Shown: one piece after another, positions 13,917-39,826 of the stretch | Position numbering within the stretch: position 1 is the stretch's first letter | How the letters are laid out: each line of letters begins with the position of its first letter | Assembly: GCA_022447525.1 (NCBI GenBank) | Contig: JAKVBA010000041.1 | Location: 1-39,826, forward strand | Source of the DNA: Gammaproteobacteria bacterium | GTDB taxonomy: Bacteria; Pseudomonadota; Gammaproteobacteria; Arenicellales; Arenicellaceae | DNA: 39,826 bases | Reading direction: 5' to 3' | The notes under the pieces: model-generated | Told to the model about the DNA's origin: nothing | What the model saw: only the letters and a program-made list of their open reading frames with translations | The model's database searches: none | Program-made: the position numbers and the translations under genes

Positions 13917-15086
13917 TCAAATTTCCCCAATAAAACTCAGACCCACACAGGTTAGTATAATTATAATCGCCGGTGTTTTTAAGACTCTCAGTGCGAATAC
14001 GCCGAGAGCGACGGTAGCGATAGCTGGAACACTATCCAGTGTATTTATCGCTAGTGGGTTAATGAAAGAAGCAGCCAGTAAGCCCACAACATAAGAATTA
14101 ATCGCCCATGAAGCTCCGGCAAAAGTTGGTAGGTTTAATAGCTGTTCCCAACTGTTCTTCAGCGTTAACACCAATAGGAAGCCCGGTAGAAAAATTGCCA
14201 GAGTAGCCAGTATCGCGCCAAGTAAAGGATTATCAAGAGTTAGTGCACCAAAAAAAGTTGCTAAAGTAAACATTGGACCGGGTACTGCTTGAGCCGCACC
14301 ATACCCGATCAAGAAGTCTTCTGTATTTATAAAATCGTTTAATCCATGTTGAAGCATGGGTAGCACAACATGACCACCTCCAAACACTAAGCTCCCTGCT
14401 CGATAGAAAGTTTCGAATAATAAGAATTCAGGCGATATCTGTCGGAACAAGATAGACCCTATCAACAAGCTAATAAAAAGGCTAAGAGGTATAATAGCGA
14501 TAAGGCCTTTAGCGTTGATGAGCTGCTGGGGATCAGCTGTTTTGGATCTGAAGGGCACGTTCTTGTAAACACCCGCCCCGTAAATAGCAGTTGTTATTAA
14601 TAATGAAATCTGGAAAAGAGCGCTGGGATAAACAGCTAACAAAACACACGCTAGAAACGCTATACCGCGGCTTTGCCAATCTTGGCAAAAACTTTTAAAC
14701 ATCGATATTAGAGCATCGGTCACCATTACTGCAGCCACTAGCTTTAGTGATGAAACAGCAGGCCAGATTAATACGCTTGAGCTTGCTTCGCTGTAATACC
14801 AAGCAAAGCAATACATTAGAATGAACGAGGGCATAGTAAAGCCGAGAAATGCGCTGATACCCCCGACGATCCCAGCGCGATGTAAGCCGATGCAAAAGCC
14901 TACTTGACTTGAACTCGGCCCAGGCAAAATTTGACTTAGTGAGACAAATTGCGAATATTGAATATCAGATAACCACATGAGCCTGGTTACAAACTGTCGA
15001 TGAAAGTAACCTAAGTGAGCTGCTGGCCCACCAAAACTCACGCACCCGAGAATAAAAAAGCGAAAAAACAATTTAATCCATGTCAT
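13917..15086 (-). CDS. chrA: Chromate-transporter family protein (ChrA, CHR superfamily)
   Basis: This 389-residue, two-domain CHR protein has about ten to twelve hydrophobic helices. The first half carries SFGGPAAHLGYFH and LPGPSSSQVG; the second repeats the pattern as LVFGGGHVVLPML and AVPGPMFTLATFFG. Long bidomain CHR proteins include Pseudomonas ChrA, an inner-membrane chromate effluxer; others may carry sulfate or have unknown substrates. No chrB regulator is present next to it, so chromate resistance is plausible but not shown. It is divergent from the Popeye-like gene with a 143-bp gap. Confidence 0.9.
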   Translation of the reverse strand: MTWIKLFFRFFILGCVSFGGPAAHLGYFHRQFVTRLMWLSDIQYSQFVSLSQILPGPSSSQVGFCIGLHRAGIVGGISAFLGFTMPSFILMYCFAWYYSEASSSVLIWPAVSSLKLVAAVMVTDALISMFKSFCQDWQSRGIAFLACVLLAVYPSALFQISLLITTAIYGAGVYKNVPFRSKTADPQQLINAKGLIAIIPLSLFISLLIGSILFRQISPEFLLFETFYRAGSLVFGGGHVVLPMLQHGLNDFINTEDFLIGYGAAQAVPGPMFTLATFFGALTLDNPLLGAILATLAIFLPGFLLVLTLKNSWEQLLNLPTFAGASWAINSYVVGLLAASFINPLAINTLDSVPAIATVALGVFALRVLKTPAIIIILTCVGLSFIGEI

Positions 15087-25782: not shown

Positions 25783-27129
25783 TTAGTAGCTGGTAGTTAA
25801 GTACTCTTGCATTAAGCGTTTCATTTTTCCTGCTTGATACTTCTCGTCATTACCCGTTAGTTTGTAAGCTTGATTGATGAAATCCTCTAAATTAACGTTG
25901 CCTGGAAAATGTTGACTGATCGCCGACATAGACATTAATGCTTGCTCAGCCGCTATATAGTCGGTGTATTCGCCATTGGCTCCAAATTGAGTGATCTCTT
26001 TGAGGATTAGGTTGCTAATTTCTTGACTAATATCTAGCCTACTAAACGTGATTTCGGCCTGTTTCGTTAGCTGAATCAAATCACGTGCTGCAGTTTTTAC
26101 TTCTTGGGTAGAGTTTAAAGACGCCTTATGGAGTTGCTTTGTGGCAATCAGAATACTGTTCTGAAGACGTTTATCGATAGCCCCAGACAATGCCGCCAAA
26201 AGGATAAAGCTACCATCGTTGATACGTATGCTTCCGGGTTTGAGACCGGAGGTCCTGGGACGGGGTTCCCACGATTGACTGTTTAAGGATTTATGGCAGC
26301 TGTGACAATTGAATAACGCAATTTCAGGAAACCCTTGTGGATGATCGAGAAGTTTGCTGTTTAAGTTCTCTGCGTTTGCTCGGGCGAACAATGCGGTTCC
26401 AATTAGCATACGGCTAATGGGCGATTCGGTGGATTGAATTCCTTTGCCTTTTCGCTCAATATAATCTTGATCAACATCGTAATGTACTGGCTGTCGCGCA
26501 ATAAAGGTATCAAGCTCAAAACTTAGGCGAGGATGACCTGCCCCCATAATATTATGATTAGCTAGTTTTTCTGATGTTCCAACATGGCATGACGTGCACA
26601 AAATAGTTCTGCTGGAGATAGAACCAGTAGGGTACATGCCATCTTTGAGATTTCTTTCTTGATCGTATGGTGTGATAGTGTGCGTACCAATATAGTTTTC
26701 TGCACCGCCATGACAGGCCTCACAGCCGACTCCGTCACTTATATGAAATTCTGGCCCACGTTTATCCTGAGAGACATTATCTGCATGACAATCCAAACAA
26801 ATATTCGCGGTAGAAGCGTCTGCTATACCGAGTTTTTGCGCTATCCTTTTCGAATCATCAGATAGTAAGGTTGTATAAGCCTTTGAATGGCGATCGTTAA
26901 ATAACCAGGTGTGGTATTCATTTTGCCTAACGTTACTTGGCTCGCTAAGAATTCTAACTCCGTGGCACATAGAATTAGCGCATGTTGCTACCCCCATATG
27001 ACTCTCAGCTGAGTATTGAGGTAGCGAAGTAGCTTGCCCATCCGCAGATGCTGCTTGCTCAGATAGACTCAATGTGAACACCAAAATAAGAGTAGCTAGA
27101 GTGAGAAATTGAGTCTGTTTACTTTGCAT
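25783..27129 (-). CDS. Pentaheme c-type cytochrome, cytochrome c554-like
   Basis: This periplasmic multiheme cytochrome has about 448 residues from the ATG at 27129, which is preferred to 27156 because AAGGA sits eight bases upstream. A signal peptide (core FLTLATLILVFTLSLSEQ, cleavage near AASA) precedes four CXXCH sites (CLDCH, CEACH, CTSCH, CHSCH) and one longer CX4CH site, CANSMCH. Blocks such as FHISDGVGCEACHGG and MGAGHPRLSFELDTF are typical of c554-like cytochromes. The C-terminal 150 residues are helical without hemes. Its start lies inside the last codons of the upstream decaheme gene (11-bp overlap), so the two are translationally coupled. It is the last gene of the cluster. Confidence 0.88.
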   Translation of the reverse strand: MQSKQTQFLTLATLILVFTLSLSEQAASADGQATSLPQYSAESHMGVATCANSMCHGVRILSEPSNVRQNEYHTWLFNDRHSKAYTTLLSDDSKRIAQKLGIADASTANICLDCHADNVSQDKRGPEFHISDGVGCEACHGGAENYIGTHTITPYDQERNLKDGMYPTGSISSRTILCTSCHVGTSEKLANHNIMGAGHPRLSFELDTFIARQPVHYDVDQDYIERKGKGIQSTESPISRMLIGTALFARANAENLNSKLLDHPQGFPEIALFNCHSCHKSLNSQSWEPRPRTSGLKPGSIRINDGSFILLAALSGAIDKRLQNSILIATKQLHKASLNSTQEVKTAARDLIQLTKQAEITFSRLDISQEISNLILKEITQFGANGEYTDYIAAEQALMSMSAISQHFPGNVNLEDFINQAYKLTGNDEKYQAGKMKRLMQEYLTTSY

Positions 27130-30100
27130 CGACGCGGTCCTTGTCATTAGGTTCATCGCTCACAGTCCATATCTTTCCTTTAGCATTTTGATACAGTTTT
27201 TGCATCTCTTGCTTGTTCAGTGGACGTGAGCCAAGTCGACCGAATACGGCAATTTGCCCGCCGGTTTCATCTACCGCTCTATCTCTATCCAAACCTTTAG
27301 ACAGAGCAATTGCCGGCGATTTAGTTTTTCTCCAAGCAATCAGCGCAGGTTTTGGCTCTGGACTGTACCCATAAAATTTTGGTTGTGAATCAGGGGAGGT
27401 GAGTTGTAGCACTTTAAGACCATTGACTCCGTCTGCGACGTAAGCGAATAAGCTTGCGTTAGTACTACCGACAACGATATCTCTAGCGTCGTTGATTTTC
27501 CCATCAGCGGTGTATTTTTGCAGTAACTTCATTTTGGTCGGATTTTTAACATCAACAATAACTAAGCCTTCCTCTCCAGCAGCAACATAGGCGTAAGTTC
27601 GAGCGACATAAATACGTTGTGCGTTTGCCATTGTAATCGTATTGTTTTCAAGAAGTTTGGGCTCAGCTCCCTGGGTAACATCGACCACTTTCAAGCCATC
27701 GGCATCTGTGACGAAAAGATATCTAAACTGAAGAGCAGTCGCGCGTCCGTCGTTTAATGGGATGATTTTTTCTAGTTTAGGTTCAAGGGGCGAATCCAGG
27801 TTAAGAATCACTAGCCCGGCATCAGCAATAATGTAGGCGTAGTGGCCGCCGATGGTAATGTGTCTCGCACCGTTCAAAACACCATCTTCGTTCCAAACCA
27901 ATTGAGCCGTCAAATCGTTATTTCTAAACTCTCCATCCGCAAGTGTGTTCACATCAACCAAAACGAGGCCGCTGCTACTATCAGTCACGAATGCATAGCT
28001 ATAAATTGGATGGAAAGGTTGCTCTTGGTTTACCACGCGCATCAACTCACCTTGATTCCGCTCTGGAGCAATATTTTGGTTTGTTGGCAGTGCCATACAG
28101 GTGGCGTTTTGAGTGTCAACCCGAGTTGATTGACCCATTGGACTAAATGGTGCGGTCACAATCCTTAAGCTATAGCCTTTATTGGCTACATTGGCCACGT
28201 CATACGCTCTGAAGCCTTTCTTTCCCTCAGCGACAAAAAGGTATTCCCCTCGTAGTTGCAGACAAGAAGCACGAGCAGATTTGTGACTGTGTTCTGTCTT
28301 CAGTTTTAATTTTCGTTTCTGATGATCCTCATACCAATCAGGGTAAGCGTATTTTTGCAAGTAACTTCCAATTACGGCCTGAGGTTCTTCCCACTCGGTT
28401 ACGGTAACAGCCGAAATACTCTTCTCACCACCAACCCAAGCATTGTAACCAACAAAGTTTACAAAATTAGTTCCTTGCAACAACAATTGTGCCATGATTG
28501 CGTTGTTGTCGTTTTCCTCAGAGAGGTGACAGTCGGTGCAGGTTTTAGTTTCCGTTAGCCTTGTGGTGTGCGGAAAGTGAGGAGCAAATGCCTGAGAGCT
28601 AAAGCCGCTTGCTGCAATAGGCGGTTGTTGAATGTATATCTTCTCTCTATTTGCATTTGTCGACGATAGCACTAGTGCAGATGATGATCTAACCGGTGTG
28701 ATTCGGCCGCCGTTAATGTCACCCCGTCGTCCCAGTTGAAACATTTGGTCCCGAGCTACCTGAGGATTATAAGTGGCATAGTTACGAGATTTTCCACCCT
28801 CGTAGTGATGTCGATCGGTTTTCCAATTTGCTTCGATAGGTAAGTGGCATCCAGCGCAACTAGTGGTCCATGAAGTATGGCAGGAGTAACACTCCATCTC
28901 CTCATCTTGATGAGCACGGTTACCGTAGGCGATCCCAGTTCCCCATTCTTGCTTCTCAGTATCACTGCTAACGGTTTTAGCGCGAGAGGCCTTATCGTTA
29001 TATTCTGGATGCTCAGGGTTAACCGAATCCTTGACTAAAGAAACTTCCCACTCCATTCCTGGGTTGAGTAGCGATCTTTGGATGAGTTTACCCTCGATCC
29101 ACTCGAACCTTAGTTTACCGTCAGGATTTCTGAGCGTAGCTAGTCTATTTCCTCCTGGAGGCGAGGCGGGACCTGAGGTAGTTAGCGTAGGATATTTATC
29201 AGCAGTACCATGGCAGTCTACGCAATCGATCTCTACCGCATTAGCTACCTCGCCATAAATATGTCCGTTTCCATGTGAATCCTGAGAAAAGTGACAATCA
29301 GAACAGTGCATGCCCTTATCAGCATGAATGGAGGCCATATGTACACCCTTTTTGAACTTTTCTGGATCATCATCGCTTATTTTTTCGCCTTCAGCATCAA
29401 GTAGGTTACCATCGCGATCTCTTTTGTAAACGGCTCGGAAATTCCAGCCATGTCCATGATAATCGGCGAACTGCGTATCTCTCAGCTTAGGATTTAATTC
29501 TGAAACCTTCGCTAGAAAGTCTGGATCTCCCCATTTTCCTCGAATAGCTGCCTCTTCAGGGTTGCGCTCATTAATTTCTCTGGTCTCAGAATGACTAGGG
29601 TACTTTTGCTCTTCTGGCCACATATGTGGTGCATCCGACTCATAGTCCCACATGGTATAGCCCAGATAGGTGTTAACAAACATATTGGGCTGATGCATAT
29701 GACAGATCATGCACTGTGAGGTGGGGATAGCTCGGGTAAACTCATGTTTCAGTGGGTGCCCTGATTCGCCTTTGGGAATAGTTGGATCTGAAGTTTGCGT
29801 GATGCCCAGATGTCCGAATTTGGCATAAGGTCCGGAGTGTTTGGGATCTCTATCATTTGCGTAAACAACATGGCAACCGGAGCACCCTGATGAGCGATAA
29901 TCACCTGGGTTGTCATTGGTTCCTAAAAACCAAGAAATTGGATCGTTTAATCTGGTTTTAGTGATGTTGATCAGAGGAACTGATATTCTAGCTCCGGTAC
30001 CAGGCCCACGATTAGATTGACGTATATCAGGACGGCCAGGCTCCTCAAGGCGTTGCAATTGACCGAGGGCATTAGGAAGTCCTGTTTCTGGGAATAGATT

Positions 30101-31033
30101 ACTTATGTTTCTACCACCGCGCTCGAATACACGAAAGATATCACCCGGCCTCACGGTCTCCCATGCAGGAAGTGGCGCTAGCGATGGTAAAACCCCATGC
30201 GCCTTCGTGAGTTCAGCTGCGTTTTTCATTGGTGGACCTTCAATCGACGCTCCAGTACCTTCCCTGGTGTAGGCCTCACCAAGAATATAGTTTTTGTAAG
30301 GAAGTATGCCATTGTTGTAAGAGGCTCCTCCCCATAGCATGGCGCCGGTACTCATTAGACTGCGTTTTGCTGCCTTGATAATTGGCAGATGGCAGGCACC
30401 ACAGGCTTCTTCCGCGATACGATAGTCGCCTGGGTTTACGAATCGTACGTATTCTGGACTCTCAGTGTTAAGAATAGTGTAAGCATGCGGAGGATTCGCG
30501 CTACTTGGGTAATGCCAAGTCTTGGGCAGAGTGGGTTGAACGTGCGCGATATCCATTGCTCCTTGATACTCTGCCGTATACTTCTTGTATGGTTTTTTGT
30601 CTGACTTTTTCTTCTTGTCCTTGTTCTTTTTGTCAGATTTAGAATCTTTTTTATACCCAGGTTCTGATTTCGAGGTATACATATCCCCACCTGACCATTC
30701 GATTTTTGCATTACCACCATGACAATCTGTACACCCTAAAATAACCCCAGGATTACTGTGCATGGTGTGTCTATCAGTTGATGTATGACAGCTCATGCAC
30801 CCTTTAGATTTTGTGTCAGCCTCAGTCTGAGTTTGAGACTTAGGTGCTGGTGGATAAAACGGATATGATATTTTTAATGGTGTCTCTCCGCCCGCAGCAA
30901 CCGCGTTACTTTGCCAGAATAAGCTCAGGAAGCTGAGCAGTATCAGGTTCAAAATCAATCCACTTAATCGTTTACACCTTGATCTTTGTGACTGTTTATC
31001 CTTACATTTTGTCATACTGTTTGCATGCATCAT
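27119..31033 (-). CDS. Secreted decaheme c-type cytochrome with C-terminal LVIVD beta-propeller
   Basis: This 1304-residue protein has a signal peptide (about residues 22-47, SNAVAA end, no lipobox). Ten CXXCH sites start near residues 79, 101, 211, 384, 441, 577, 604, 715, 726 and 832. A strongly basic insert rich in Lys and Asp/Ser lies at about 127-151, between hemes 2 and 3. From about 920 to 1245 come about six LVIVD-type repeats, seen as GLVLVDVNTL, GLVILNLDS, GLKVVDVTQ, GLVIVDVKN and GLKVLQLTS, each preceded by a Y-A-Y/F-V strand; these form a beta-propeller. The protein is exported and may work in the periplasm or at the cell surface beside the beta-barrel encoded 39 bp upstream. The propeller could bind a partner or substrate. 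I know no characterised member. Confidence 0.88.
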   Translation of the reverse strand: MMHANSMTKCKDKQSQRSRCKRLSGLILNLILLSFLSLFWQSNAVAAGGETPLKISYPFYPPAPKSQTQTEADTKSKGCMSCHTSTDRHTMHSNPGVILGCTDCHGGNAKIEWSGGDMYTSKSEPGYKKDSKSDKKNKDKKKKSDKKPYKKYTAEYQGAMDIAHVQPTLPKTWHYPSSANPPHAYTILNTESPEYVRFVNPGDYRIAEEACGACHLPIIKAAKRSLMSTGAMLWGGASYNNGILPYKNYILGEAYTREGTGASIEGPPMKNAAELTKAHGVLPSLAPLPAWETVRPGDIFRVFERGGRNISNLFPETGLPNALGQLQRLEEPGRPDIRQSNRGPGTGARISVPLINITKTRLNDPISWFLGTNDNPGDYRSSGCSGCHVVYANDRDPKHSGPYAKFGHLGITQTSDPTIPKGESGHPLKHEFTRAIPTSQCMICHMHQPNMFVNTYLGYTMWDYESDAPHMWPEEQKYPSHSETREINERNPEEAAIRGKWGDPDFLAKVSELNPKLRDTQFADYHGHGWNFRAVYKRDRDGNLLDAEGEKISDDDPEKFKKGVHMASIHADKGMHCSDCHFSQDSHGNGHIYGEVANAVEIDCVDCHGTADKYPTLTTSGPASPPGGNRLATLRNPDGKLRFEWIEGKLIQRSLLNPGMEWEVSLVKDSVNPEHPEYNDKASRAKTVSSDTEKQEWGTGIAYGNRAHQDEEMECYSCHTSWTTSCAGCHLPIEANWKTDRHHYEGGKSRNYATYNPQVARDQMFQLGRRGDINGGRITPVRSSSALVLSSTNANREKIYIQQPPIAASGFSSQAFAPHFPHTTRLTETKTCTDCHLSEENDNNAIMAQLLLQGTNFVNFVGYNAWVGGEKSISAVTVTEWEEPQAVIGSYLQKYAYPDWYEDHQKRKLKLKTEHSHKSARASCLQLRGEYLFVAEGKKGFRAYDVANVANKGYSLRIVTAPFSPMGQSTRVDTQNATCMALPTNQNIAPERNQGELMRVVNQEQPFHPIYSYAFVTDSSSGLVLVDVNTLADGEFRNNDLTAQLVWNEDGVLNGARHITIGGHYAYIIADAGLVILNLDSPLEPKLEKIIPLNDGRATALQFRYLFVTDADGLKVVDVTQGAEPKLLENNTITMANAQRIYVARTYAYVAAGEEGLVIVDVKNPTKMKLLQKYTADGKINDARDIVVGSTNASLFAYVADGVNGLKVLQLTSPDSQPKFYGYSPEPKPALIAWRKTKSPAIALSKGLDRDRAVDETGGQIAVFGRLGSRPLNKQEMQKLYQNAKGKIWTVSDEPNDKDRVDAK

Positions 31034-31072
31034 TTGGTATACGTCTATTTGCCTTTTTGTTTTTCTGAAAGT

Positions 31073-33427
31073 TTAATAGGCTAGTATTACGTTGGCTAAT
31101 ATGGAGTAGGGCGAACTGTCTCCATATAAGTCTTTAAAACCACTGCCAGGGTTTAACACTGCCCCCGATAGTCTAACAACCGCGTTTTGCGTGGCGAATG
31201 GTCGCCATATCAGCGCAGCCGATATATCTTGACCAATATTCTTTCTGATATCAGATTGGTTTCTCGCCAACTCTAGGCTTGTTGTGTCATCGAACCACAT
31301 TTGATTTAAATTGAATGACAATCGTGTCTGAGGCGTCAAATCTAAGTCTGCGCCGATACCGACAAGAGTAATACCCGGATTGGTGAAGTTAGACTGCCCA
31401 AGCTCCTTTGACGATCTCAAGGAAGGTATAATTGAGTTGCGACTATTTAACGCTACACGACCACCACCGATCAGTGGGACATTTTGTCGTATGAAAAATG
31501 CTGTGTCGCCACCAGCGAACTGTGGATTTTCAAAGATTGCATCAAAGCCCTTCTCTTTGTTGTCAAAAGGATTGTCGTCGCCACTAGAATGCAGGAAGGA
31601 GGCTCTGGCTCTTACCCAGTCGAAGTCTCTTGATAGTTCAGCCGCAAAAAAGTATGCACTGATATCAGTTTCATCATTGGTAAATACCCCATTGGATTGA
31701 TCACCAAATGCATAGTAAGCCGAGTAGGTGAGGTTATTGCGACCAAAATGGCCGTCTCCGCTAAGTCCTAGATAGGTTACGTCATAATCTCTTCCACGTT
31801 CAAATCCTAGTGAACTCGGGCGGGCAATAAATGCGTTATCGTCAAAGAAAAAGTCGTCCGCTTCTCGATTACGGTTATGTGTAATTGAGGCTTGTGAAAT
31901 AAATCCAAGACTCGGAAAGTCTTGCCAATATAGGTTTGCTGTAAAAATGTCGTCGTCACGCAAGGAATCAGCGATATCATTCAATCCGCTGTTGATTTCT
32001 TTTTCCATCCTTCTGAACCAAGCGACATTGTATTGAAATATATTGTTATCTCGAGTCCCAAAAAAACGTACTCCAAATTGATTATCTTGAAACAAAAATC
32101 CGCGAAAATCACTAGAGAAAGGTTGTATACCGATACGGAAACTATCGAAATCATAACGATCCGATACATTGCGAATGTGGTAGTCCCAGAAAGCGCCTTG
32201 TATTCCAATAAAGCCCTCGGTACGAGTAGTTCCTTCACCTGGGTCTGCTTTTAAAATGCCTCTCTCATCAACAACGGTATGATTTAGATTAAAAACCGTG
32301 ATCAGCCTAAACTCGTGGTCTGGGGGCCTAAACACGGTATCCCCTCGGTAAAGGACGGTCTCCACGATGAGATTTTCATTGAACAAAAATTGATCACCAT
32401 CCGCAAGCAGATCTAGTTGTCCTGCGCTTCTGGTTGTGGCAGCCCCGACGGGTAATGGAAAGTTTCTTGGTTCGAGAACGGTGTCTGATATAGCAGATAA
32501 GTTAAAAAACCACTCTTTGGTTGGTTTACCAAAAATAGGTTTATCACCTTTGAGGGTATTATTGCCGTTGTAGGGGTCCCACCATCTCTCTGCATAACCA
32601 AGAGTGTCTACAATACGCCACCTGTCGGGGACGGGTGCTGGATCAGCTAAAAGTGATGGGCGAGGTGCTTGTAGCCGATTCTCTCGACAATCCTCGGCCT
32701 CATAGCTCAACACTGGAAACCCAGGTCTTCGCCTCTGTCTTATTTCTTTACCATCTAATTGCGAGCACGTTGCAGGGGTAAATAATTCCGCCTTTTTCTG
32801 GTCAGCATCGTCATACCCAATTGGTGCGGGTATTAAGCTTGGTAACGTATTGGAGCTTGAACTGCTCTCATCTCTAATCATGATTGAGTCTGATGTCAAA
32901 CTTGTGTCAATCTGAATATTTGACTCCAGAGCTCTCGTTGATTTCGAGCAAAAAGGTGCTAAGCTCTGGTCGATTCCATTGATGTTGCATCGCGTCTGTT
33001 TGATCTTATCAATCGAGCTCACGATAAAACCATCAAGATTTAAATATTCAGATGCCTGACGAGCATCATTTACTAAGCTGTAAGCACCTGAAACTGCGAA
33101 AAAACGATTCGGCTTAGTGCTGGATTCAAAACAGTATGCCGCCTGTTTAGTATAGGACTCGAAGTCTTGTGCCAGTTGTTGACAATTTTTAAGACCATAG
33201 ACCGTGGCAAATTGCAGTGTTTGTCCTGAGCTTTGTTGATTTAGCCAACTATAGGCTCTTTTGTGGACTTCGTTGTTTGGCACATTTAGGGTGCTGAATA
33301 CAGCAGTTTTATCAGCCGCATGACTGACATTTACCCCAGTATTAAATGCTAGGGCAACAGCCGGCGCCAACAGTCGCTTTACTGGCTTGAACGCTATTTT
33401 GTTACCTATTTTATGTTTTTGCTTCAT
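31073..33427 (-). CDS. Outer-membrane beta-barrel protein with SPOR-like N-terminal domain
   Basis: The 784-residue product has a signal peptide ending near SHAA (residue 38). An N-terminal domain (about 57-145, LQFATVYGLKNCQQLAQDFE ... FFAVSGAYSLVNDARQASEY) has the pattern of SPOR peptidoglycan-binding domains such as that of DamX. A Ser/Pro-rich linker follows, then about 500 residues of alternating, aromatic-rich strands and turns ending in a C-terminal Tyr (ILANVILAY), as in outer-membrane barrels. Within a multiheme cluster it is the candidate porin sheath of a porin-cytochrome conduit. I could not place it in the MtrB/PioB or OmbB families by eye. The gene starts 18 bp after the GlcG-like gene. 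Confidence 0.8.
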   Translation of the reverse strand: MKQKHKIGNKIAFKPVKRLLAPAVALAFNTGVNVSHAADKTAVFSTLNVPNNEVHKRAYSWLNQQSSGQTLQFATVYGLKNCQQLAQDFESYTKQAAYCFESSTKPNRFFAVSGAYSLVNDARQASEYLNLDGFIVSSIDKIKQTRCNINGIDQSLAPFCSKSTRALESNIQIDTSLTSDSIMIRDESSSSSNTLPSLIPAPIGYDDADQKKAELFTPATCSQLDGKEIRQRRRPGFPVLSYEAEDCRENRLQAPRPSLLADPAPVPDRWRIVDTLGYAERWWDPYNGNNTLKGDKPIFGKPTKEWFFNLSAISDTVLEPRNFPLPVGAATTRSAGQLDLLADGDQFLFNENLIVETVLYRGDTVFRPPDHEFRLITVFNLNHTVVDERGILKADPGEGTTRTEGFIGIQGAFWDYHIRNVSDRYDFDSFRIGIQPFSSDFRGFLFQDNQFGVRFFGTRDNNIFQYNVAWFRRMEKEINSGLNDIADSLRDDDIFTANLYWQDFPSLGFISQASITHNRNREADDFFFDDNAFIARPSSLGFERGRDYDVTYLGLSGDGHFGRNNLTYSAYYAFGDQSNGVFTNDETDISAYFFAAELSRDFDWVRARASFLHSSGDDNPFDNKEKGFDAIFENPQFAGGDTAFFIRQNVPLIGGGRVALNSRNSIIPSLRSSKELGQSNFTNPGITLVGIGADLDLTPQTRLSFNLNQMWFDDTTSLELARNQSDIRKNIGQDISAALIWRPFATQNAVVRLSGAVLNPGSGFKDLYGDSSPYSILANVILAY

Positions 33428-33445
33428 GCTTTTTTTAAAAGTTAA

Positions 33446-35248
33446 CTACTTGCCATTGCAGGGGAAGGCTTCGGTAGAATCTATAAACGGCGCTTGCGGA
33501 CAGTTTATGTATCTTAGTCTCACACCCTGTGGAGACAGAGTATCCGCTCTGATAGCTGGGTCAGCATTATTTATCGCACCTCCCAACTCGAGTCCGGCAT
33601 GGTGTAATCCCAGAAAAGAAATCATGTCATCTTGGTCAACACCATCACCCGATACGCCAATGCCCCCAACGAGTTGTCTCCCACGATAAATCGGCACACT
33701 ACCCGGGAAGATCTGAATACCATTTGGCAAATTTGATATTCCAGTGCAGTTGGTCGTTGGGGTTGTAATAAGATTTTTGACCAAATCAAATTGAAGTCCA
33801 ACATTGAAAGGACTCCATTGCTCAAATGGACGACTGAACGGGCCATTTGGATTGCCGTTGATGCCATCCGGATAAAAAGGTCGTGATAGGTTTCCTCCTG
33901 AGCGATCAGAGAAGGCAATACCGTCGGCAAGCGCAGTTGGACCAATGAAAGATCTTGCTGTATTTACGTAGTGTTGAAGACCATTTTCACTGAGTATTTG
34001 AGCCGCATCAGGCCTAGAGAAGAACGCAGCGGTCCTTGCTTTCTGGAGAGACACATCAGTACCAAAAATAGGTGCGTCATGAGTTCTAGCGATACCAAGG
34101 ATGACTCCATTGCTGTCTACAATAGAAATGCTTACTCTAGCTCCTGAATCGGCTGGATTTCTTATTTGAGCTCTCGAGCGGTAAGCAATTCTAAGAGCAT
34201 TTGCTATCAGTACTCTGACTTCATTCGCGGTCAACGCAGCTTCATCAGTGCCATCGCGAGGTAGAAATCGATCGCCAAGCACAACTGCTGGCGAGCCAAA
34301 GTCTTCGGAACCGATGAACCCCGACTCTAAATTACCGAACTTAATTCCAGTCGTAAGTTGTCCGTTTGTAAATCCAGCAACCGCAATTAATTGACCGTTG
34401 CCACTCAGAGGCGCGACCCCATTACTTTTGAGATCCGCAAAGTTGGCGTCAGAATATCTGACTAACTTGCCGTCTAAACTGACTCTTTGCAATTGTATGG
34501 GGGCGTCGTAGCCTCGCGTAGCCGCTAAGGCAATCAGTTCGTCGGAATTTTTATCTAGATCGGAGATCGATCGGTCGATTGAATAAAGTCCATCTGCTAT
34601 TACGCCAACGCCACCAACAACAACACCATTTTTATAAAGCGGGAAACCGCCAGGATCAGCTGAGAGTCCAAGAGGGGAAGGCTTCGGCCCCTGAGTACCA
34701 CTTTTGACGGTAAGGTCTGAACAAAGTAATTGGCTAAATTGAACACCAAATAAGGGTCCCGCAGGTTGATTAAACTCCCCAGGGTTGAAGTGCTCTTGAA
34801 CAATTTGGCTTGCTACCCTGGTGCTAAATGAATTGCCGCCACTACTTAGATAGTTTCCGGTTATGGCTTTGGAGATAGCGGCAAAAGCCGAGGGTACCAC
34901 CAACATCTCCAAGCCGTTTCCAGCGGCTAAGCCGCGTCCGGAACTGATGGTGACCTGAGGGTTGGCACCATTCATCTGATATACACCTAAAACATTCCCT
35001 GATCTATCAACGACAGCAATGGTTGCCGGTGCTCCTTGTGCTTTCGCTTCTGCGATTGCTCGACCAATCACCTGTGCAACTTCTCCTTGGGTCAAAATTT
35101 GCTCGTTTTGAGCCGAAGCCGCGGATAAGCTAGCCAATAGCAAGAGATAAGTGGTTAGTAAGCATTTCAACGAATATCTAACGCGAGAAAGACATAACTG
35201 AGAGTTACAATAAAGTTGCTGCTTGATTAAGTTTGTCGACATAGTCAT
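33446..35248 (-). CDS. Periplasmic protein with two GlcG/HbpS heme-binding-type domains
   Basis: The 600-residue product starts at the ATG at 35248, with AAGGA five bases upstream; longer in-frame starts would run into the preceding gene. A signal peptide ends near SAASA. Two GlcG/HbpS domains follow. The first (about 48-250) opens with LTQGEVAQVIGRAIAEAKAQ and APATIAVVDRSGNVLGVY; the second (about 345-590) opens with LTANEVRVLIANAL and VSISIVDSNGVILGIA. Each ends with the family strand VVGGVGVIADG or LVGGIGVSGDG. HbpS of Streptomyces binds heme and redox-responds outside the membrane; GlcG itself is less understood. Position between two multiheme cytochromes suggests a heme-handling or electron-relay role, which is inferred. 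Confidence 0.85.
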   Translation of the reverse strand: MTMSTNLIKQQLYCNSQLCLSRVRYSLKCLLTTYLLLLASLSAASAQNEQILTQGEVAQVIGRAIAEAKAQGAPATIAVVDRSGNVLGVYQMNGANPQVTISSGRGLAAGNGLEMLVVPSAFAAISKAITGNYLSSGGNSFSTRVASQIVQEHFNPGEFNQPAGPLFGVQFSQLLCSDLTVKSGTQGPKPSPLGLSADPGGFPLYKNGVVVGGVGVIADGLYSIDRSISDLDKNSDELIALAATRGYDAPIQLQRVSLDGKLVRYSDANFADLKSNGVAPLSGNGQLIAVAGFTNGQLTTGIKFGNLESGFIGSEDFGSPAVVLGDRFLPRDGTDEAALTANEVRVLIANALRIAYRSRAQIRNPADSGARVSISIVDSNGVILGIARTHDAPIFGTDVSLQKARTAAFFSRPDAAQILSENGLQHYVNTARSFIGPTALADGIAFSDRSGGNLSRPFYPDGINGNPNGPFSRPFEQWSPFNVGLQFDLVKNLITTPTTNCTGISNLPNGIQIFPGSVPIYRGRQLVGGIGVSGDGVDQDDMISFLGLHHAGLELGGAINNADPAIRADTLSPQGVRLRYINCPQAPFIDSTEAFPCNGK

Positions 35249-35295
35249 AAATTTCCTTGCAGGTAGACCTCTGTGTATATAAGGCGGGAAGCTCA

Positions 35296-36759
35296 TTAAG
35301 GTTGCGATCTGGTTGTGGTCGTGTTGTCGGCCCCAGAGCGTGTTAATCTGATCTTTTGATTTTTTAGAAGTAACTCCGCGGTATTGCTGTTGCCCCATGG
35401 TTTTTGATTGTCTAAATGAAAGTCATGGCACCCGACACACGTAGTCGGTAGTTTACTTTCATGTGTTCTGGAACCGGTATGGCATGCCTCACAGTTTGGT
35501 AAATCGGGCATTAATACATCAGTCGCGGTGTCAGACAGCGTAGCGTTGTGGCAGCTAGCACAGGCGAATGTTTTATGGCTAAAATGATCAAAGTCTGATT
35601 TAGGCATCCAGTTCGTCGTTAAACGAATCGGGTTTACTCGCCACTTAGATAAATATTTCCCACTGTTATCGATACTAGTCTCGTGACACGTTTTACACGT
35701 AGTTCGTTCAAAGATCTCTTCAGCGATACTGTAGGCTTTGCCCCAAGGGCTGGCCAAGTTTTGTGTTTGCAACTCTCTTTGCTCTACGGATTTACCCGGA
35801 CGACGAAGCATAAAATCTCGGACTTCATCACTGGTTGGTTCACGACCTAGCTCAGTAAGCAAGTACTGACGTGAGTAATATTCCTCTAGCGTTAAAAGTA
35901 CGGTGTCCGGATCTCCATGAGGCACAAATCGACCAGGTGCATCTGCGTCAAAAATCATAGTATGGCAGTCACTGCAGTGATTAACCATGTTGATCGGTTG
36001 CATCAATTTGCCGGCATCATCATTTAAATGGCAGCTATTGCACTGAAGCACACGTGTACCCTCGGGCGCATCTATCCCGTCAGCATTTAAATGAACATCA
36101 TGAGGAAAAATTAAATTCGATTGTTCCTTGGGCGCATCTTTTAAGGCGACTCTCAGAGTTTCCCAAACTGTATCGTCAGCTGTGCCAGTTGGTTGTAGCA
36201 TTGAAACTTTGAAAGATGGATGAGGATTTTTTTTACTCGATCGTTGTTCCGATCCAAAGCTGTCTACATCAATAAGGTCAGTGGTTGCCACACCCGTTTC
36301 AGCCATATCACTATGACAAGCTACGCATAACTGATCGTCTTGACGAACAATCTGAAGAGGAGTCTCGTGTTCAAGATGACAGCTGGCGCATCGAGAGCTT
36401 TCCAAGCGCTCTACATCGTGCGTCGCCGTATCAAAATGATGATTCGTAGCAGCGTGGCACTCGAGACATGTATCGTCTTGTACTACCTCAAAACCATTAA
36501 CGTGGCATGCATCACAATTTTTGTTTAGGTCAGGAATTTGATGTGGTGGCGACAACTCACCTGAAATCCATGAATTATCTGACGGTAGTGGCGAGTTTCT
36601 CAGACTCGACGCTAGATCTTTATTAGTGAGGCTTACTAAAGGAATGATTAGAAATAGACTTAAAATTCCGACAAACAAAAGCCAAGATGGCCAACGTTTA
36701 CTGAGGTTGGTTTGATCTAGAGAGACCTTGTGTTCAGTTATATTCTTTGGATCTGCCAT
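35296..36759 (-). CDS. Membrane-anchored decaheme c-type cytochrome
   Basis: The product has about 487 residues from the ATG at 36759, five bases after the stop of the membrane-protein gene with GGTAGAGG as ribosome site. One uncleaved helix (about 23-44, WLLFVGILSLFLIIPLVSL) anchors it in the inner membrane. Ten CXXCH sites follow in the periplasmic part: CDACH, CLECH, CASCH, CVACH, CNSCH, CSDCH, CKTCH, CASCH, CEACH and CVGCH. The layout is like that of NapC/CymA-type quinol-linked or TorC-like cytochromes, though longer. It should take electrons from, or give them to, the adjacent di-heme-b protein and pass them across the periplasm. Confidence 0.9.
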   Translation of the reverse strand: MADPKNITEHKVSLDQTNLSKRWPSWLLFVGILSLFLIIPLVSLTNKDLASSLRNSPLPSDNSWISGELSPPHQIPDLNKNCDACHVNGFEVVQDDTCLECHAATNHHFDTATHDVERLESSRCASCHLEHETPLQIVRQDDQLCVACHSDMAETGVATTDLIDVDSFGSEQRSSKKNPHPSFKVSMLQPTGTADDTVWETLRVALKDAPKEQSNLIFPHDVHLNADGIDAPEGTRVLQCNSCHLNDDAGKLMQPINMVNHCSDCHTMIFDADAPGRFVPHGDPDTVLLTLEEYYSRQYLLTELGREPTSDEVRDFMLRRPGKSVEQRELQTQNLASPWGKAYSIAEEIFERTTCKTCHETSIDNSGKYLSKWRVNPIRLTTNWMPKSDFDHFSHKTFACASCHNATLSDTATDVLMPDLPNCEACHTGSRTHESKLPTTCVGCHDFHLDNQKPWGNSNTAELLLKNQKIRLTRSGADNTTTTRSQP

Positions 36760-36764
36760 GACCT

Positions 36765-37628
36765 CTACCAATAGTAAAAAACTACGATTATATGTACGAT
36801 TAACGCCGCCAGTAGGCCAAATGAAAGGGGCACATGGAAGTACAGCCAAGCTTTTAAAATACCGCGAATTTGGATGTCTCGGCGTACCCGCGCTAGCAAA
36901 GTTTGCTTTGCAGCAAAGTTAGCTAGCAAATTTTGAATCAATCCAGATCTCTCGCTGTCCTGTGATTGCGATAAATGCTCAGCGAGCTCTGATATAATTT
37001 TCTCTTGATTTCGATTTGATACTGATTTGCCGTTGTCATCCATCATCGAGGAGAAGTCTTTAGCCCTGAGTTGCTGCCACCATGAACCGCCAATACTACA
37101 ACCCGCTACAGCGCTCTCAACTATGCCGCTTAATTGTGCCAATTTTGCATCTTTTATGCATCTATCGTCTATCTTTTGTAGCTGTTCAATCAAGCCTGCG
37201 AGTGTCTCTCCTGCGCGATTGTTAGTCATCAGATTGGGATACCTGATATAAGCGTAAATACCAAAAAAACCACTCATGATCACGCTTACCATTAAAACGT
37301 AGGCTAGGGTATGTATGTTGTAGCCAAACTGGAGTCCGCAATGAAGAGTTGCGATTAAGAGTAGAGCGGTACCAAGATAAACATGAGCTGATGTCCATCC
37401 CTGCACTGACCCCATATTAGAGCGATAGTTTCTTTTGCGTACACCCAGTAGCATTAACCAAACAATAAGCAAGGCTCCAACCGTTCCCAGTGTATAACCT
37501 AGCCAAGTGCCACCATTAGGAGAGTTGATTGGCTGGTGTAAATAATACGCGAGTGCAGACACGGCACTGAGCAATGTAGCAACCCAGAAATACCGAGCCT
37601 GTTTATAATTTGCTATTGATTGATACAA
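36765..37628 (-). CDS. Di-heme b-type cytochrome membrane protein
   Basis: This 287-residue protein has about five membrane helices (13-30, 43-63, 79-99, 107-127, 260-284). Two helices each hold a His pair 14 residues apart: His82/His96 and His265/His279. This spacing is the mark of two helices sandwiching two b-hemes, as in NarI-, cytochrome b561- and ferric-reductase-like proteins. A soluble, charged segment of about 130 residues separates helices 4 and 5. The start is TTG with AAGG eleven bases upstream; an in-frame stop just before rules out a longer form. It probably links the cytoplasmic FeS/flavin protein, or the quinone pool, to the decaheme cytochrome encoded five bases downstream. 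Confidence 0.8.
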   Translation of the reverse strand: MYQSIANYKQARYFWVATLLSAVSALAYYLHQPINSPNGGTWLGYTLGTVGALLIVWLMLLGVRKRNYRSNMGSVQGWTSAHVYLGTALLLIATLHCGLQFGYNIHTLAYVLMVSVIMSGFFGIYAYIRYPNLMTNNRAGETLAGLIEQLQKIDDRCIKDAKLAQLSGIVESAVAGCSIGGSWWQQLRAKDFSSMMDDNGKSVSNRNQEKIISELAEHLSQSQDSERSGLIQNLLANFAAKQTLLARVRRDIQIRGILKAWLYFHVPLSFGLLAALIVHIIVVFYYW

Positions 37629-37715
37629 AATTTTAATTACCTTGTATTACATCAATTTAGCTCATGGCATTCATCGAATGTTTGTCGCCAAATTGTGTTT
37701 GATTTTCATTTTATA

Positions 37716-37735
37716 GTCTTACGAGAAGGTAAGAC
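37716..37735. other. Hairpin between flavin/FeS gene and cytochrome b gene
   Basis: GTCTTAC (37716-37722) and GTAAGAC (37729-37735) form a perfect 7-bp stem with a 6-base loop, in the 116-bp gap between two co-directional genes. There is no T tract, so transcript processing or modulation of downstream expression is more likely than termination. Confidence 0.35.
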
Positions 37736-37744
37736 ATTTCTTGA

Positions 37745-39826
37745 TTAGCCGAACCGCTGGCTAACCAACTCGACAAAATCTTTTGGATTGAAGCGTTGTG
37801 CGGCACCAGTTGGGCAAGCCCTTACACACGCAGCTCCCCCCGAGATATCTTTGCATGCGTCACATTTAACAGCCTTTTTGATATCGCTTTTGTCATCGTA
37901 GTTTTTGCCTCCGGGTCCAGGGCCCTTACCAGTAAGCAACCAGTTGAGAAGACCGGGCTTAGGGGCTGGATTTTTCTGTAAAGAAATAACTTCATATGGA
38001 CAATTACGCACACAGTTACCGCAACCAATGCATGCTTCTTGGTCTATATACACCTCTCCGTCTGAGGCTCTATGTATGGCGTCAGGCGGGCAGTCTTTCA
38101 TGCAATGTGGGTGTTCACAATGTCGACAAGATATTGGCACATGCAAATCAGCGAATGAAGCTCCAGCCTCTCGATTAAGTCTAGAATTTCCGTCGTGTGA
38201 TTCCGCACAAGCTTTTTCGCAATTATCACAACCCACGCATAATGATTCATCAATCAGCAGTACATCGGTTCCTTCGCCAAGACCTTCACTCATCAAGAAT
38301 GACATTAACTCTCCACCTTTTGGTTGAGCTTGCATTCTTGCTTCAACCGTCAGACGATCTCGCATATGGTCTTGAACCTGGGTTTTCATTGTTTTTTCTT
38401 TTTCTAAAAGAGTCAGAAAAGAATCTCGAGTCAGACAAATAGTTTCTGTTCTAACATTTGCTCGGGCGGTATCCGTGCGTTTGCCCTCGCCAAGCGCACC
38501 AGTTTCACCGAAGTAATGACCAACCGGCATATATGAGGTGATGATTTCCCGATTGTTGCTTTCTTTGATAGTTGTTACCGAGCCAACTCTGATTAAATGC
38601 ACTTCATCACCATCATCTCCCTGTCGATAAATGTCCTCTCCCGCATCAAAAGTTCGCAATGCCGATGAGTTAATGACTTCAGTTAACTCAGAGTGAGCAG
38701 TGTTTGGGGTGAACTTTGAGTGGATCGCACGCAACATAAATGCTCTATCCAAGGTCAACTTAACTGAATCGACTGAGTTTTGAAGTTTCACCATTGAACG
38801 ACGGGGTGTTTCGATTACTACACAGTTTTTACCCGCGTATACAGTGGCCGTTCTTCGGCGGCCTGATATCAAGCTTTGTTCTCCAAAGAATCCGCCTTTA
38901 TTGAAATGAAACTCGCCAACCCCAGGTAACTTTACGTATGCGTTTCCATCCGCCACCACAAAGAAAGTGTCGGTAAATTCTCCTTGTACGCACAACGGTT
39001 GGCCCTCAGGGACTAGCCTCACACTGCTGTCTAAGATAAATTCGCGAAACGTTAATGGGTTGACGTCAGCATATATCGGGGAGACATTTTGCAAGTACTC
39101 CAAAATTTCACTGACGGAGTTATCGTATGGAAGTCCTTTGAAAGCCTCGACCAATAATGGATGATCAGCGGGCTCGATGTCGTTGCCACGTATATATTCA
39201 ACTACCTCATAGCCTTGGTTCATCGCCTGCTTGATGAGAGGGTAGCCACCCAATGCGCCGATGATATACATGCCCGGCACATTTGATTCGTATTGATTAG
39301 AAAGCTCTGGTAAAGCTGCTGGGCTGTCGTTTGGAAATTCAATACCGAATGACTCAACCAAGCCTCTTTGCGGTATGGCTCCAAGACGGGCAATAACCCT
39401 ATCTACAGGCACTGGTTTTTCTCCTGTTGGGGTACTTAGATAGAAGATATAGCGGCTATTTTGTTCCGGGTTCTCCTCAATCCTGGCCGGATTCGATTCG
39501 TAGTGACACTCTATTTTTCCATCGCTAATATGAGCCAGTATCGAGTCAAGATTACCTTGTTTGGCACGAGCGAATTCGTCCCTTCGGTTAATAATATGGA
39601 CTTCATTATTGCCGGCCAGACCAACTGCGTTCTCGATCGCCGCGTCACCCGCTCCAACTACCGCGATTTTTTCGCCCTTATACTCGTCTGGATCATCTAG
39701 CTGGTATTGGATATGTTCAAATTCAGCTCCAGGGCAAGGAAGTTTTCTAGGGTTGCCCTGAACACCTATACCGAGAATTATAAATTCGGCTTTGAGTTGA
39801 TCTCCATTCGTCAGGGTGATTAGAAA
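37745..39826 (-). CDS. Flavin/NAD(P)-type oxidoreductase fused to two cyclic-nucleotide-binding domains and a four-cluster ferredoxin domain (5'-truncated)
   Basis: The frame is open to the right edge; 693 residues are present and the N-terminal FAD motif lies outside. In order, a thioredoxin-reductase-like fold carries the NAD(P) motif VVGAGDAAIENAV (about 54-66) and the closing flavin segment GMYIIGALGGYP. Two Crp-like domains follow: the first has the phosphate cassette FGEQSLISGRRRTATV, the second FGETGALGEGKRTDTARA. A C-terminal NrfC/DmsB-like domain has four Cys motifs: CVGCDNCEKAC, CRHCEHPHCMKDCP, CIGCGNCVRNCP and CDACKDI...CVRACP, enough for four [4Fe-4S] clusters. There is no membrane helix or signal peptide in this part, so it is probably cytoplasmic. 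It is the likely electron entry or exit point of the downstream cytochrome chain, with cyclic-nucleotide control inferred. Confidence 0.88.
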   Translation of the reverse strand, partial: FLITLTNGDQLKAEFIILGIGVQGNPRKLPCPGAEFEHIQYQLDDPDEYKGEKIAVVGAGDAAIENAVGLAGNNEVHIINRRDEFARAKQGNLDSILAHISDGKIECHYESNPARIEENPEQNSRYIFYLSTPTGEKPVPVDRVIARLGAIPQRGLVESFGIEFPNDSPAALPELSNQYESNVPGMYIIGALGGYPLIKQAMNQGYEVVEYIRGNDIEPADHPLLVEAFKGLPYDNSVSEILEYLQNVSPIYADVNPLTFREFILDSSVRLVPEGQPLCVQGEFTDTFFVVADGNAYVKLPGVGEFHFNKGGFFGEQSLISGRRRTATVYAGKNCVVIETPRRSMVKLQNSVDSVKLTLDRAFMLRAIHSKFTPNTAHSELTEVINSSALRTFDAGEDIYRQGDDGDEVHLIRVGSVTTIKESNNREIITSYMPVGHYFGETGALGEGKRTDTARANVRTETICLTRDSFLTLLEKEKTMKTQVQDHMRDRLTVEARMQAQPKGGELMSFLMSEGLGEGTDVLLIDESLCVGCDNCEKACAESHDGNSRLNREAGASFADLHVPISCRHCEHPHCMKDCPPDAIHRASDGEVYIDQEACIGCGNCVRNCPYEVISLQKNPAPKPGLLNWLLTGKGPGPGGKNYDDKSDIKKAVKCDACKDISGGAACVRACPTGAAQRFNPKDFVELVSQRFG

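Follow-up and report, generated by a model that had tools for sequence, protein, structure and literature searches.

Most of the known trans-envelope electron conduits belong to metal-reducing and metal-oxidizing bacteria. In the study by He et al. (2017, PMC5566968), the predicted systems PCC3 and PCC4 share a b-type protein with two WX3HX13H motifs and an SGXXG motif, akin to ferric reductases and NADPH oxidases. The same source gives PCC4 periplasmic cytochromes of 4, 5 and 10 hemes and no extracellular one, with inward flow to quinone proposed, and gives PCC3 periplasmic and extracellular cytochromes with medians of 21 and 34 heme sites. Here, a locus of seven genes, P1–P7, is compared with these systems. 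It lies on contig JAKVBA010000041.1 from a gammaproteobacterium of the family Arenicellaceae, and ‘the window’ denotes this entire contig (C159, 39,826 bp). The predicted products join an inner half resembling that of PCC4 to an outer half that is not MtrAB and whose LVIVD decaheme cytochrome, AlgE-like barrel and HbpS protein were not found in two PCC4-like loci. That the set serves to transfer electrons across the envelope, in whatever manner, can be stated with good confidence. The more specific reading preferred here, a signal-gated, NADPH-fed conduit running outward, stands at about even strength, its direction, donor, gating, assembly and acceptor being what we infer. No laboratory study or description of this gene set, no expression or phenotype data and no characterized cluster under another name were found among the open-access papers searched; the nearest system, PCC4, is itself only predicted and matches the inner-membrane half.

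The seven closely spaced open reading frames (ORFs) run in one direction on the minus strand (25783-39826), the arrangement that a first, sequence-only reading of this DNA had claimed. P7 (37745..39826; the C-terminal 693 residues) is a thioredoxin reductase (TrxR)/FNR-like flavoprotein with two cyclic-nucleotide-binding domains and four 4Fe–4S sites (Pfam Pyr_redox, two cNMP_binding and 4Fe-4S); that reading had recognized the flavin/FeS protein and left the two cyclic-nucleotide domains unmentioned. P6 (36765..37628) is an inner-membrane di-heme b protein whose two WX3HX13H motifs, accompanied by SGXXG, account for the two b-heme His pairs proposed earlier. P5 (35296..36759; listed ORF 35296-36849) is a decaheme cytochrome of the cytochrome c7/c3 type (PF14522/PF02085), anchored by one N-terminal transmembrane (TM) helix and probably starting just after P6 at the ATG at 36759, which gives 487 residues. 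P4 (33446..35398, likely start about 35248) is exported and carries two HbpS/GlcG domains (HbpS-like PF03928, three stretches, 91.4 bits against a cut-off of 25), as had been claimed. P3 (31073..33427) is a probable outer-membrane beta-barrel, AlgE-like. P2 (27119..31033) is an exported decaheme cytochrome of 1304 residues with a C-terminal LVIVD propeller (PF08309, 75.1 bits), and P1 (25783..27156) an exported pentaheme cytochrome of the c554 family (PF13435, 44.6 bits). Pfam, the heme counts and the P5 helix thus bear out the anchored decaheme, decaheme-propeller and pentaheme cytochromes of the earlier reading, together with its total of 24 CXXCH and one CX4CH (10 in P5, 10 in P2 and 4+1 in P1).

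The contig end cuts P7, so that the start of the gene is absent from the window. In the same genome (3.62 Mb, 96.5% complete), P7 on C159 starts at residue 107, and the end of contig C90 supplies residues 3-104 (C90 26374-26679), in the numbering of a relative at the intact same-genus locus L152 (genome G017). The end of C90 also carries a second pentaheme gene of the c554-like type, which is divergent from P7 (G000:C90 24523-25857; L003 9524-10858). At L152, P7, P6, P5, P4, P3, P2 and P1 are co-directional and a second c554-like pentaheme gene is likewise divergent from P7. Therefore, C90 and C159 are very likely neighbors in the genome, and the locus has eight genes: the seven proposed earlier are all seen, but the seventh is truncated by the contig end and an eighth lies on another contig.

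Scanning a species-genome collection for P2 yielded at least 154 relatives, of which the best 80 were kept. Because ORF lists misread some GC-rich loci, recurrence was counted by tblastn on those 56 of these 80 loci in which the sequence upstream of P2 spans 9 kb or more. Of these, 55 have P3 and 55 have P4, P5, P6 and P7 occur in 52 each, and P1, the looser member, in 31; the genes recur together, so that the lack of recurrence named by the sequence-only reading as a refutation does not apply. P3 lies directly upstream of P2 in 64/65 relatives, and P1 directly follows P2 in 34 of the 66 with downstream room. Four loci are without P5–P7, namely L059, L060 and L068, whose genomes carry P6 elsewhere (E <1e-117), and the same-genus remnant L037; the genome of L088 has a P6 match as well. 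The remnant (L037 10001-14383, genome G002) retains P1 and a P2 that has lost its first 314 residues and three hemes, and P3–P7 were not found in its fetched stretch. At L037, a frame that appears FecR-like by eye reaches up to the break in P2. Heme-site counts are nearly constant: ten in all 52 complete P5, 4+1 in all 39 complete P1 and ten in 69 of 73 P2 calls, the exceptions being two spurious fragments, the L037 remnant with its seven sites and the L061 protein, which is full-length and has nine. Recurrence and these near-constant counts rule out chance ORFs.

In a survey of the order that searched 109 genomes, 7 of 18 genus members match (the genome of the window included; the piece in G005 lies at a contig edge) and 5 further genomes match weakly. 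Within the class, a sample of 369 genomes (again with the source genome) contains 13 with P2, from 10 of 271 genera and always with >60% identity; P2 is also found in alpha- and betaproteobacteria. A plasmid collection holds 13 P2 records, all from sphingomonads (12 Sphingobium, one Sphingopyxis) and annotated as hypothetical protein or multiheme cytochrome. The P2 tree sorts by class, with two changes for three classes, the minimum (68 class-labeled rows out of 78); the set therefore looks to have been inherited mostly vertically, with many losses, and recent transfer as a unit was rejected on the same grounds. Since L083, titled Acidobacteria, groups with the bog alphaproteobacterium L053 in this tree, no second phylum is claimed. 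Divergence is correlated in all 21 gene pairs (r 0.74–0.96). Isolates with the set include Tahibacter, Dokdonella, Solimonas and Pseudoteredinibacter, presumably aerobic organotrophs. On a Sphingobium herbicidovorans plasmid (L149 2390-8668 and 515-2302), a ShlB/FhaC-type transporter and a 2092-residue protein without a Pfam match precede the cytochrome genes; L151 shows a similar arrangement, and the large protein has a match in L125.

Built on the modules, heme sites, topology signals, recurrence, nucleotide-pocket residues and gene fusion read directly from the sequences, the proposed path would begin in the cytoplasm at P7, where electrons would pass from NADPH to FAD and on to the four 4Fe–4S clusters. 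P7, encoded upstream of P6, matches PF13247 (44.1 bits), and across 55 rows none of the 16 cluster cysteines is ever replaced. In what we take to be the TrxR-type NADPH motif, two Arg and a Lys are 98–100% conserved, but the second basic position is variable (R 33%, K 24%). Searched against solved structures, a full-length P7 relative finds thioredoxin reductase (E 3e-18) and ferredoxin-NADP reductase, as well as PKA regulatory subunits and HycB-type ferredoxins. Because 51/51 proteins have no CXXC in their first 420 residues, a TrxR-type disulfide reductase was considered and rejected. The next step would be the two b hemes of P6, which would span the inner membrane like those of NADPH oxidases and ferric reductases. 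The two WX3HX13H motifs and SGXXG are shared by the window protein and 51/53 relatives, five His of P6 outside c-heme motifs are conserved at ≥97%, and P6 matches no Pfam family, including those of ferric reductases (FRD). In L128 (3052-6420) and L129 (4850-8203), P7 and P6 are fused as one ORF of about 1,120 residues, which argues that P7 may pass its electrons straight to P6. After this fusion comes a P5 of 9+1 hemes, and P2 was not found in these two genomes.

From P6, electrons would enter the ten c hemes of the inner-membrane-anchored P5 and so the periplasm, with the pentaheme P1 as a relay where present. The P5 profile matches a solved multiheme chain (3ov0, E 3e-19) and that of P1 matches solved cytochrome c554 (E 1e-6). 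Histidines conserved outside the heme motifs number 10 for the 10 CXXCH of P5 (invariant in 53 rows), five for the five sites of P1, CX4CH included (invariant in 40 aligned rows), and 13 for the 10 CXXCH of P2 (≥97% in 78 rows). This pattern fits a bis-His electron wire in P1, P5 and P2. As the conserved candidate His match or exceed the hemes in number, no open catalytic heme is visible, and a catalytic site of that kind was set aside on this conservation analysis.

The direction of flow separates the preferred conduit from a rather unlikely reversal, in which P2, P3 and P4 would oxidize an extracellular donor (Fe(II), Mn(II) or reduced organics) and P1, P5 and P6 would lead the electrons either to quinone or, through P7, to NAD(P)+. 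Inward flow has been proposed for PCC4 (PMC5566968), whose look-alike loci contain relatives of P1, P5, P6 and part of P7. Lake, groundwater and sediment-type sources also occur among the records of the relatives. Against this reversal, P7 resembles an NAD(P)H reductase and shares an ORF with P6 in two genomes; electrons driven inward to NADP+ have to climb the redox potential as well as the membrane potential; and the named isolates are presumably organotrophs. The outward conduit is favored because the cell is negative inside, and electrons from NAD(P)H move downhill as they leave it. No energy would be conserved at P6, and thus a reductase duty would fit better than respiration; the occurrence of isolates taken to be aerobic among the hosts likewise suggests reductase duty rather than anaerobic respiration.

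At the far end of the outward path, P3, P2 and P4 would form an outer-membrane station from which the ten hemes of P2 would deliver electrons to an extracellular acceptor at or beyond the outer membrane, candidates being Fe(III) or another metal, a redox shuttle or O2. P3 ends in Tyr or Phe in the window and in 64/64 full-length relatives, and two of 51 family members match Alginate_exp (L047 with 27.8 bits against a cut-off of 25.2); the window protein has neither a Pfam match nor a TM helix. The outer-membrane barrel of the sequence-only reading is therefore kept as probable. A barrel encoded beside multiheme cytochromes, the mark of the conduit class, is indicated here by these barrel signs together with synteny. 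For P4, the best solved-structure match is EfgA, and a lipobox-like pattern occurs in 44/54 relatives and not in the window protein, a crude pattern that also fires on the P1 heme motif. Searches of the PDB with P2, P3 and P6 gave no useful match. P2 is the best conserved member of the set, with a mean column identity of 59% and a median pairwise identity of 63%, followed by P3 (53%), P4 (53%), P7 (52%), P6 (46%), P1 (36%) and P5 (34%). Because the cytochrome presumed to lie furthest out varies least, our reading is that P2 may meet a defined partner or acceptor.

The same conservation lends something to a second alternative, as doubtful as flow reversal, in which no electrons leave the cell: P2 would be the terminal reductase or oxidase of an outer-membrane or periplasmic enzyme system, and P3 and P4 would import or bind a small substrate. 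P2 is unusually conserved and has three conserved His beyond ten distal ligands, P4 is closest to EfgA, and P3, which the MtrB profile does not find, resembles a solute-export barrel in two of 51 members. On the other side, each P2 heme has one or more conserved His available as a candidate ligand and all ten of its sites in the window are CXXCH, so that no open catalytic heme is seen, relatives not having been searched for CXXCK.

The preferred conduit would also be gated. Each of the two cyclic-nucleotide domains of P7 keeps its pocket Glu and Arg (96/100% and 85/100% in 55 rows), and a cyclic nucleotide, probably cAMP, would gate the protein. A second gate would be a phospho-signal acting on a cytoplasmic FHA-type domain of P5, in most relatives but not in this genome. 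A cytoplasmic N-terminal extension precedes the P5 helix in 52/52 relatives, and of 54 rows, window included, 33 match FHA in Pfam and 40 match YscD_cpl, a cytoplasmic family that we take to be FHA-related. Signaling genes also lie nearby. Counted by tblastn, 10 loci have a PP2C phosphatase gene and 10 a tandem-FHA gene (nine gammaproteobacterial plus L061), ORF clustering giving 9 and 9. A CpdA-type phosphodiesterase gene is found in eight of the loci compared and directly adjoins P5 on two Sphingobium plasmids, where one copy is annotated cpdA. The proximity of these genes is observed, and it is tempting to propose that CpdA, PP2C and FHA neighbors could gate the conduit. In seven loci of one alphaproteobacterial clade (L021-L025, L027 and L032; e.g. 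L021 239-757), a small protein without a Pfam match is encoded between P5 and P4.

Whether the two halves belong together was considered from a wider scan, in which the P6 profile found 22 of 299 genomes of the phylum and sixteen stretches were examined. Two of these, L124 and L126, hold the system; P2 lies ∼10 kb further on the contig at L123 and some 670 kb away on the contig at L125; and in G474, G499 and G610, P7–P6–P5 is present with no P2 match in the genome. The last three genomes would suit two independent modules sharing a locus, an NAD(P)H:periplasmic-cytochrome oxidoreductase (P7–P6–P5) and an unrelated surface complex (P4–P3–P2), as would the opposite orientations in L057, L078 and Sphingobium and the separation of the modules in the genomes of L059, L060, L068 and G669. 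Joint presence in 52/56 loci and retention of P6 in the genome in three of the four exceptions make this reading very improbable.

Several observations weigh against the preferred conduit. P5 of the window and of L152 lacks an FHA-type domain, which for the window speaks against gating by that route, and no FNR, CRP, NNR or Fur sites above chance were found upstream of P7. The NADPH assignment leans on the TrxR motif assumed above, with its variable second basic residue, and the strict motif patterns are found in 39/51 (FAD, GxGxxG), 36/51 (dinucleotide, GxGDxAxE) and 25/51 (NADPH) P7 proteins. P1 is absent from the fetched stretch in 25 of the 56 loci. The physical assembly of barrel and cytochromes is presumed, and the covariation of gene pairs may be plain common descent, given a P2 tree that follows class. 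The conservation of P2 is the opposite of what is seen in Geobacter and Shewanella, whose outer-membrane and extracellular cytochromes belong to a high mutation class (PMC12977616), and would suit contact with a particular partner or substrate better than service as a general-purpose wire. Finally, two genomes appear to break the set: no P6 match was found in the L039 genome, where P2 is present (nor in the Sphingopyxis plasmid record), and in genome G472, given as 100% complete, the genes from P7 through P3 run to the edge of a contig (L122 = G472:C20) and P2 was not found. In both counter-examples the argument is a gene missing from a draft or partial assembly, and for this reason they leave our confidence unchanged.

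A tentative extension of the outward reading, held well below the conduit itself, likens the set to a non-respiratory, trans-envelope NADPH oxidase (NOX) of aerobic Gram-negative bacteria, in which cAMP and protein phosphorylation would switch on electron export via about 25 c hemes. At the same tentative level, reduction at the surface of O2 (to superoxide), Fe(III) or other acceptors would serve iron access, signaling or defense rather than growth. The set occurs in many water and soil bacteria, among them isolates presumed to live aerobically, and joins a conserved LVIVD decaheme to intracellular signaling domains. If the conduit does what is proposed here, it would give ordinary aerobes a further, regulated means of influencing extracellular redox chemistry. 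Elsewhere in the window, a gene of the chromate-transporter family lies at 13917-15086, the remaining left-half genes scanned resemble ordinary metabolism, and Rfam and tRNA scans of the window gave no match.

Likeness to the known systems is partial in each case. With MtrCAB, MtoAB and PioAB the set shares a barrel and decaheme cytochromes, and a stretch of the P5 profile matches 6r2q_A (1e-5), a structure that we take to be MtrCAB. Identity with MtrAB was rejected: P5 reaches 23.9 bits against a cut-off of 192.2 for the MtrA/DmsE decaheme model TIGR03508, PF11854 (MtrB/PioB) is absent among the matches of the window P3 and 51 family members, and the MtrB profile does not find P3. In the genome of the window there is no TIGR03508 match and no MtrB profile match, the latter search having been run without a positive control. 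The MtrB profile matches in three of six genomes or records that hold the set, always at other places: Tahibacter soli, T. aquaticus and Dokdonella immobilis each have one adjacent MtrA–MtrB pair that is not P3, whereas Pseudoteredinibacter isoporae (LMG 25246), Solimonas fluminis and a Sphingobium plasmid have no match; MtrA was likewise not found in the first two. The Geobacter extHIJKLMNOPQS cluster (ExtI porin, ExtM) likewise brings porin, b cytochrome and multihemes together, but it includes a rhodanese along with inner-membrane proteins of Rieske and b type, and the gene list in its source shows no flavin/cNMP or HbpS protein. ExtM identity was rejected for P2, which matches model NF040943 partially, with 66 bits against a cut-off of 800.

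PCC3 shares the b-type protein signature and differs in its 21- and 34-heme cytochromes; L131, with a 24-heme ORF, has the PCC3 look. PCC4 is closer, having the same b-type protein, a 4Fe–4S/cNMP (PF13247) protein upstream, a decaheme and a c554-like tetraheme. L130, L134 and L136 are PCC4-like, L134 without an evident porin; L136 encodes 5-, 4- and 10-heme cytochromes, a flavoprotein and a cNMP/4Fe–4S protein. Against chosen L130 and L136 proteins, the P1 and P5 profiles each score about 58 bits (with E values near 5e-19 and 3e-19, in a ten-sequence search), whereas P2, P3 and P4 profiles have no match. P3 gives no hmmsearch match with the porin candidates of two PCC4-like loci and an hhalign probability of 0.1–0.5 (of 100, single-sequence templates). 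The inner-membrane half thus looks to be shared with PCC4 and the outer half replaced, as judged from look-alike loci rather than published sequences. Simple identity with PCC4, to which the common b-protein signature, PF13247 protein and c554-like and decaheme partners lend some color, is the least probable alternative, given the 4-, 5- and 10-heme cytochromes with no extracellular one in the description of PCC4 (He et al. 2017) and the lack, in L130 and L136 (look-alikes, not the sequences of that study), of P2 or P4 relatives and of porins similar to P3. PCC4 has three periplasmic cytochromes of 4, 5 and 10 hemes, against 5 (4+1), 10 and 10 sites here; the flavoprotein of L136 is separate and of ferredoxin-reductase type, whereas here it is fused and TrxR-like; and L136 has a porin without detectable P3 similarity, no LVIVD decaheme, no HbpS protein and an extra 745-residue pentaheme. 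With the NADPH oxidases and ferric reductases, finally, the set shares HX13H pairs on the third and fifth helices, a likeness pointed out by He et al., and an NAD(P)H flavoprotein of the cytoplasm, which two relatives carry as a fusion. It differs in that P6 has no FRD match in Pfam and in that the electrons here would pass on to c-type multihemes.

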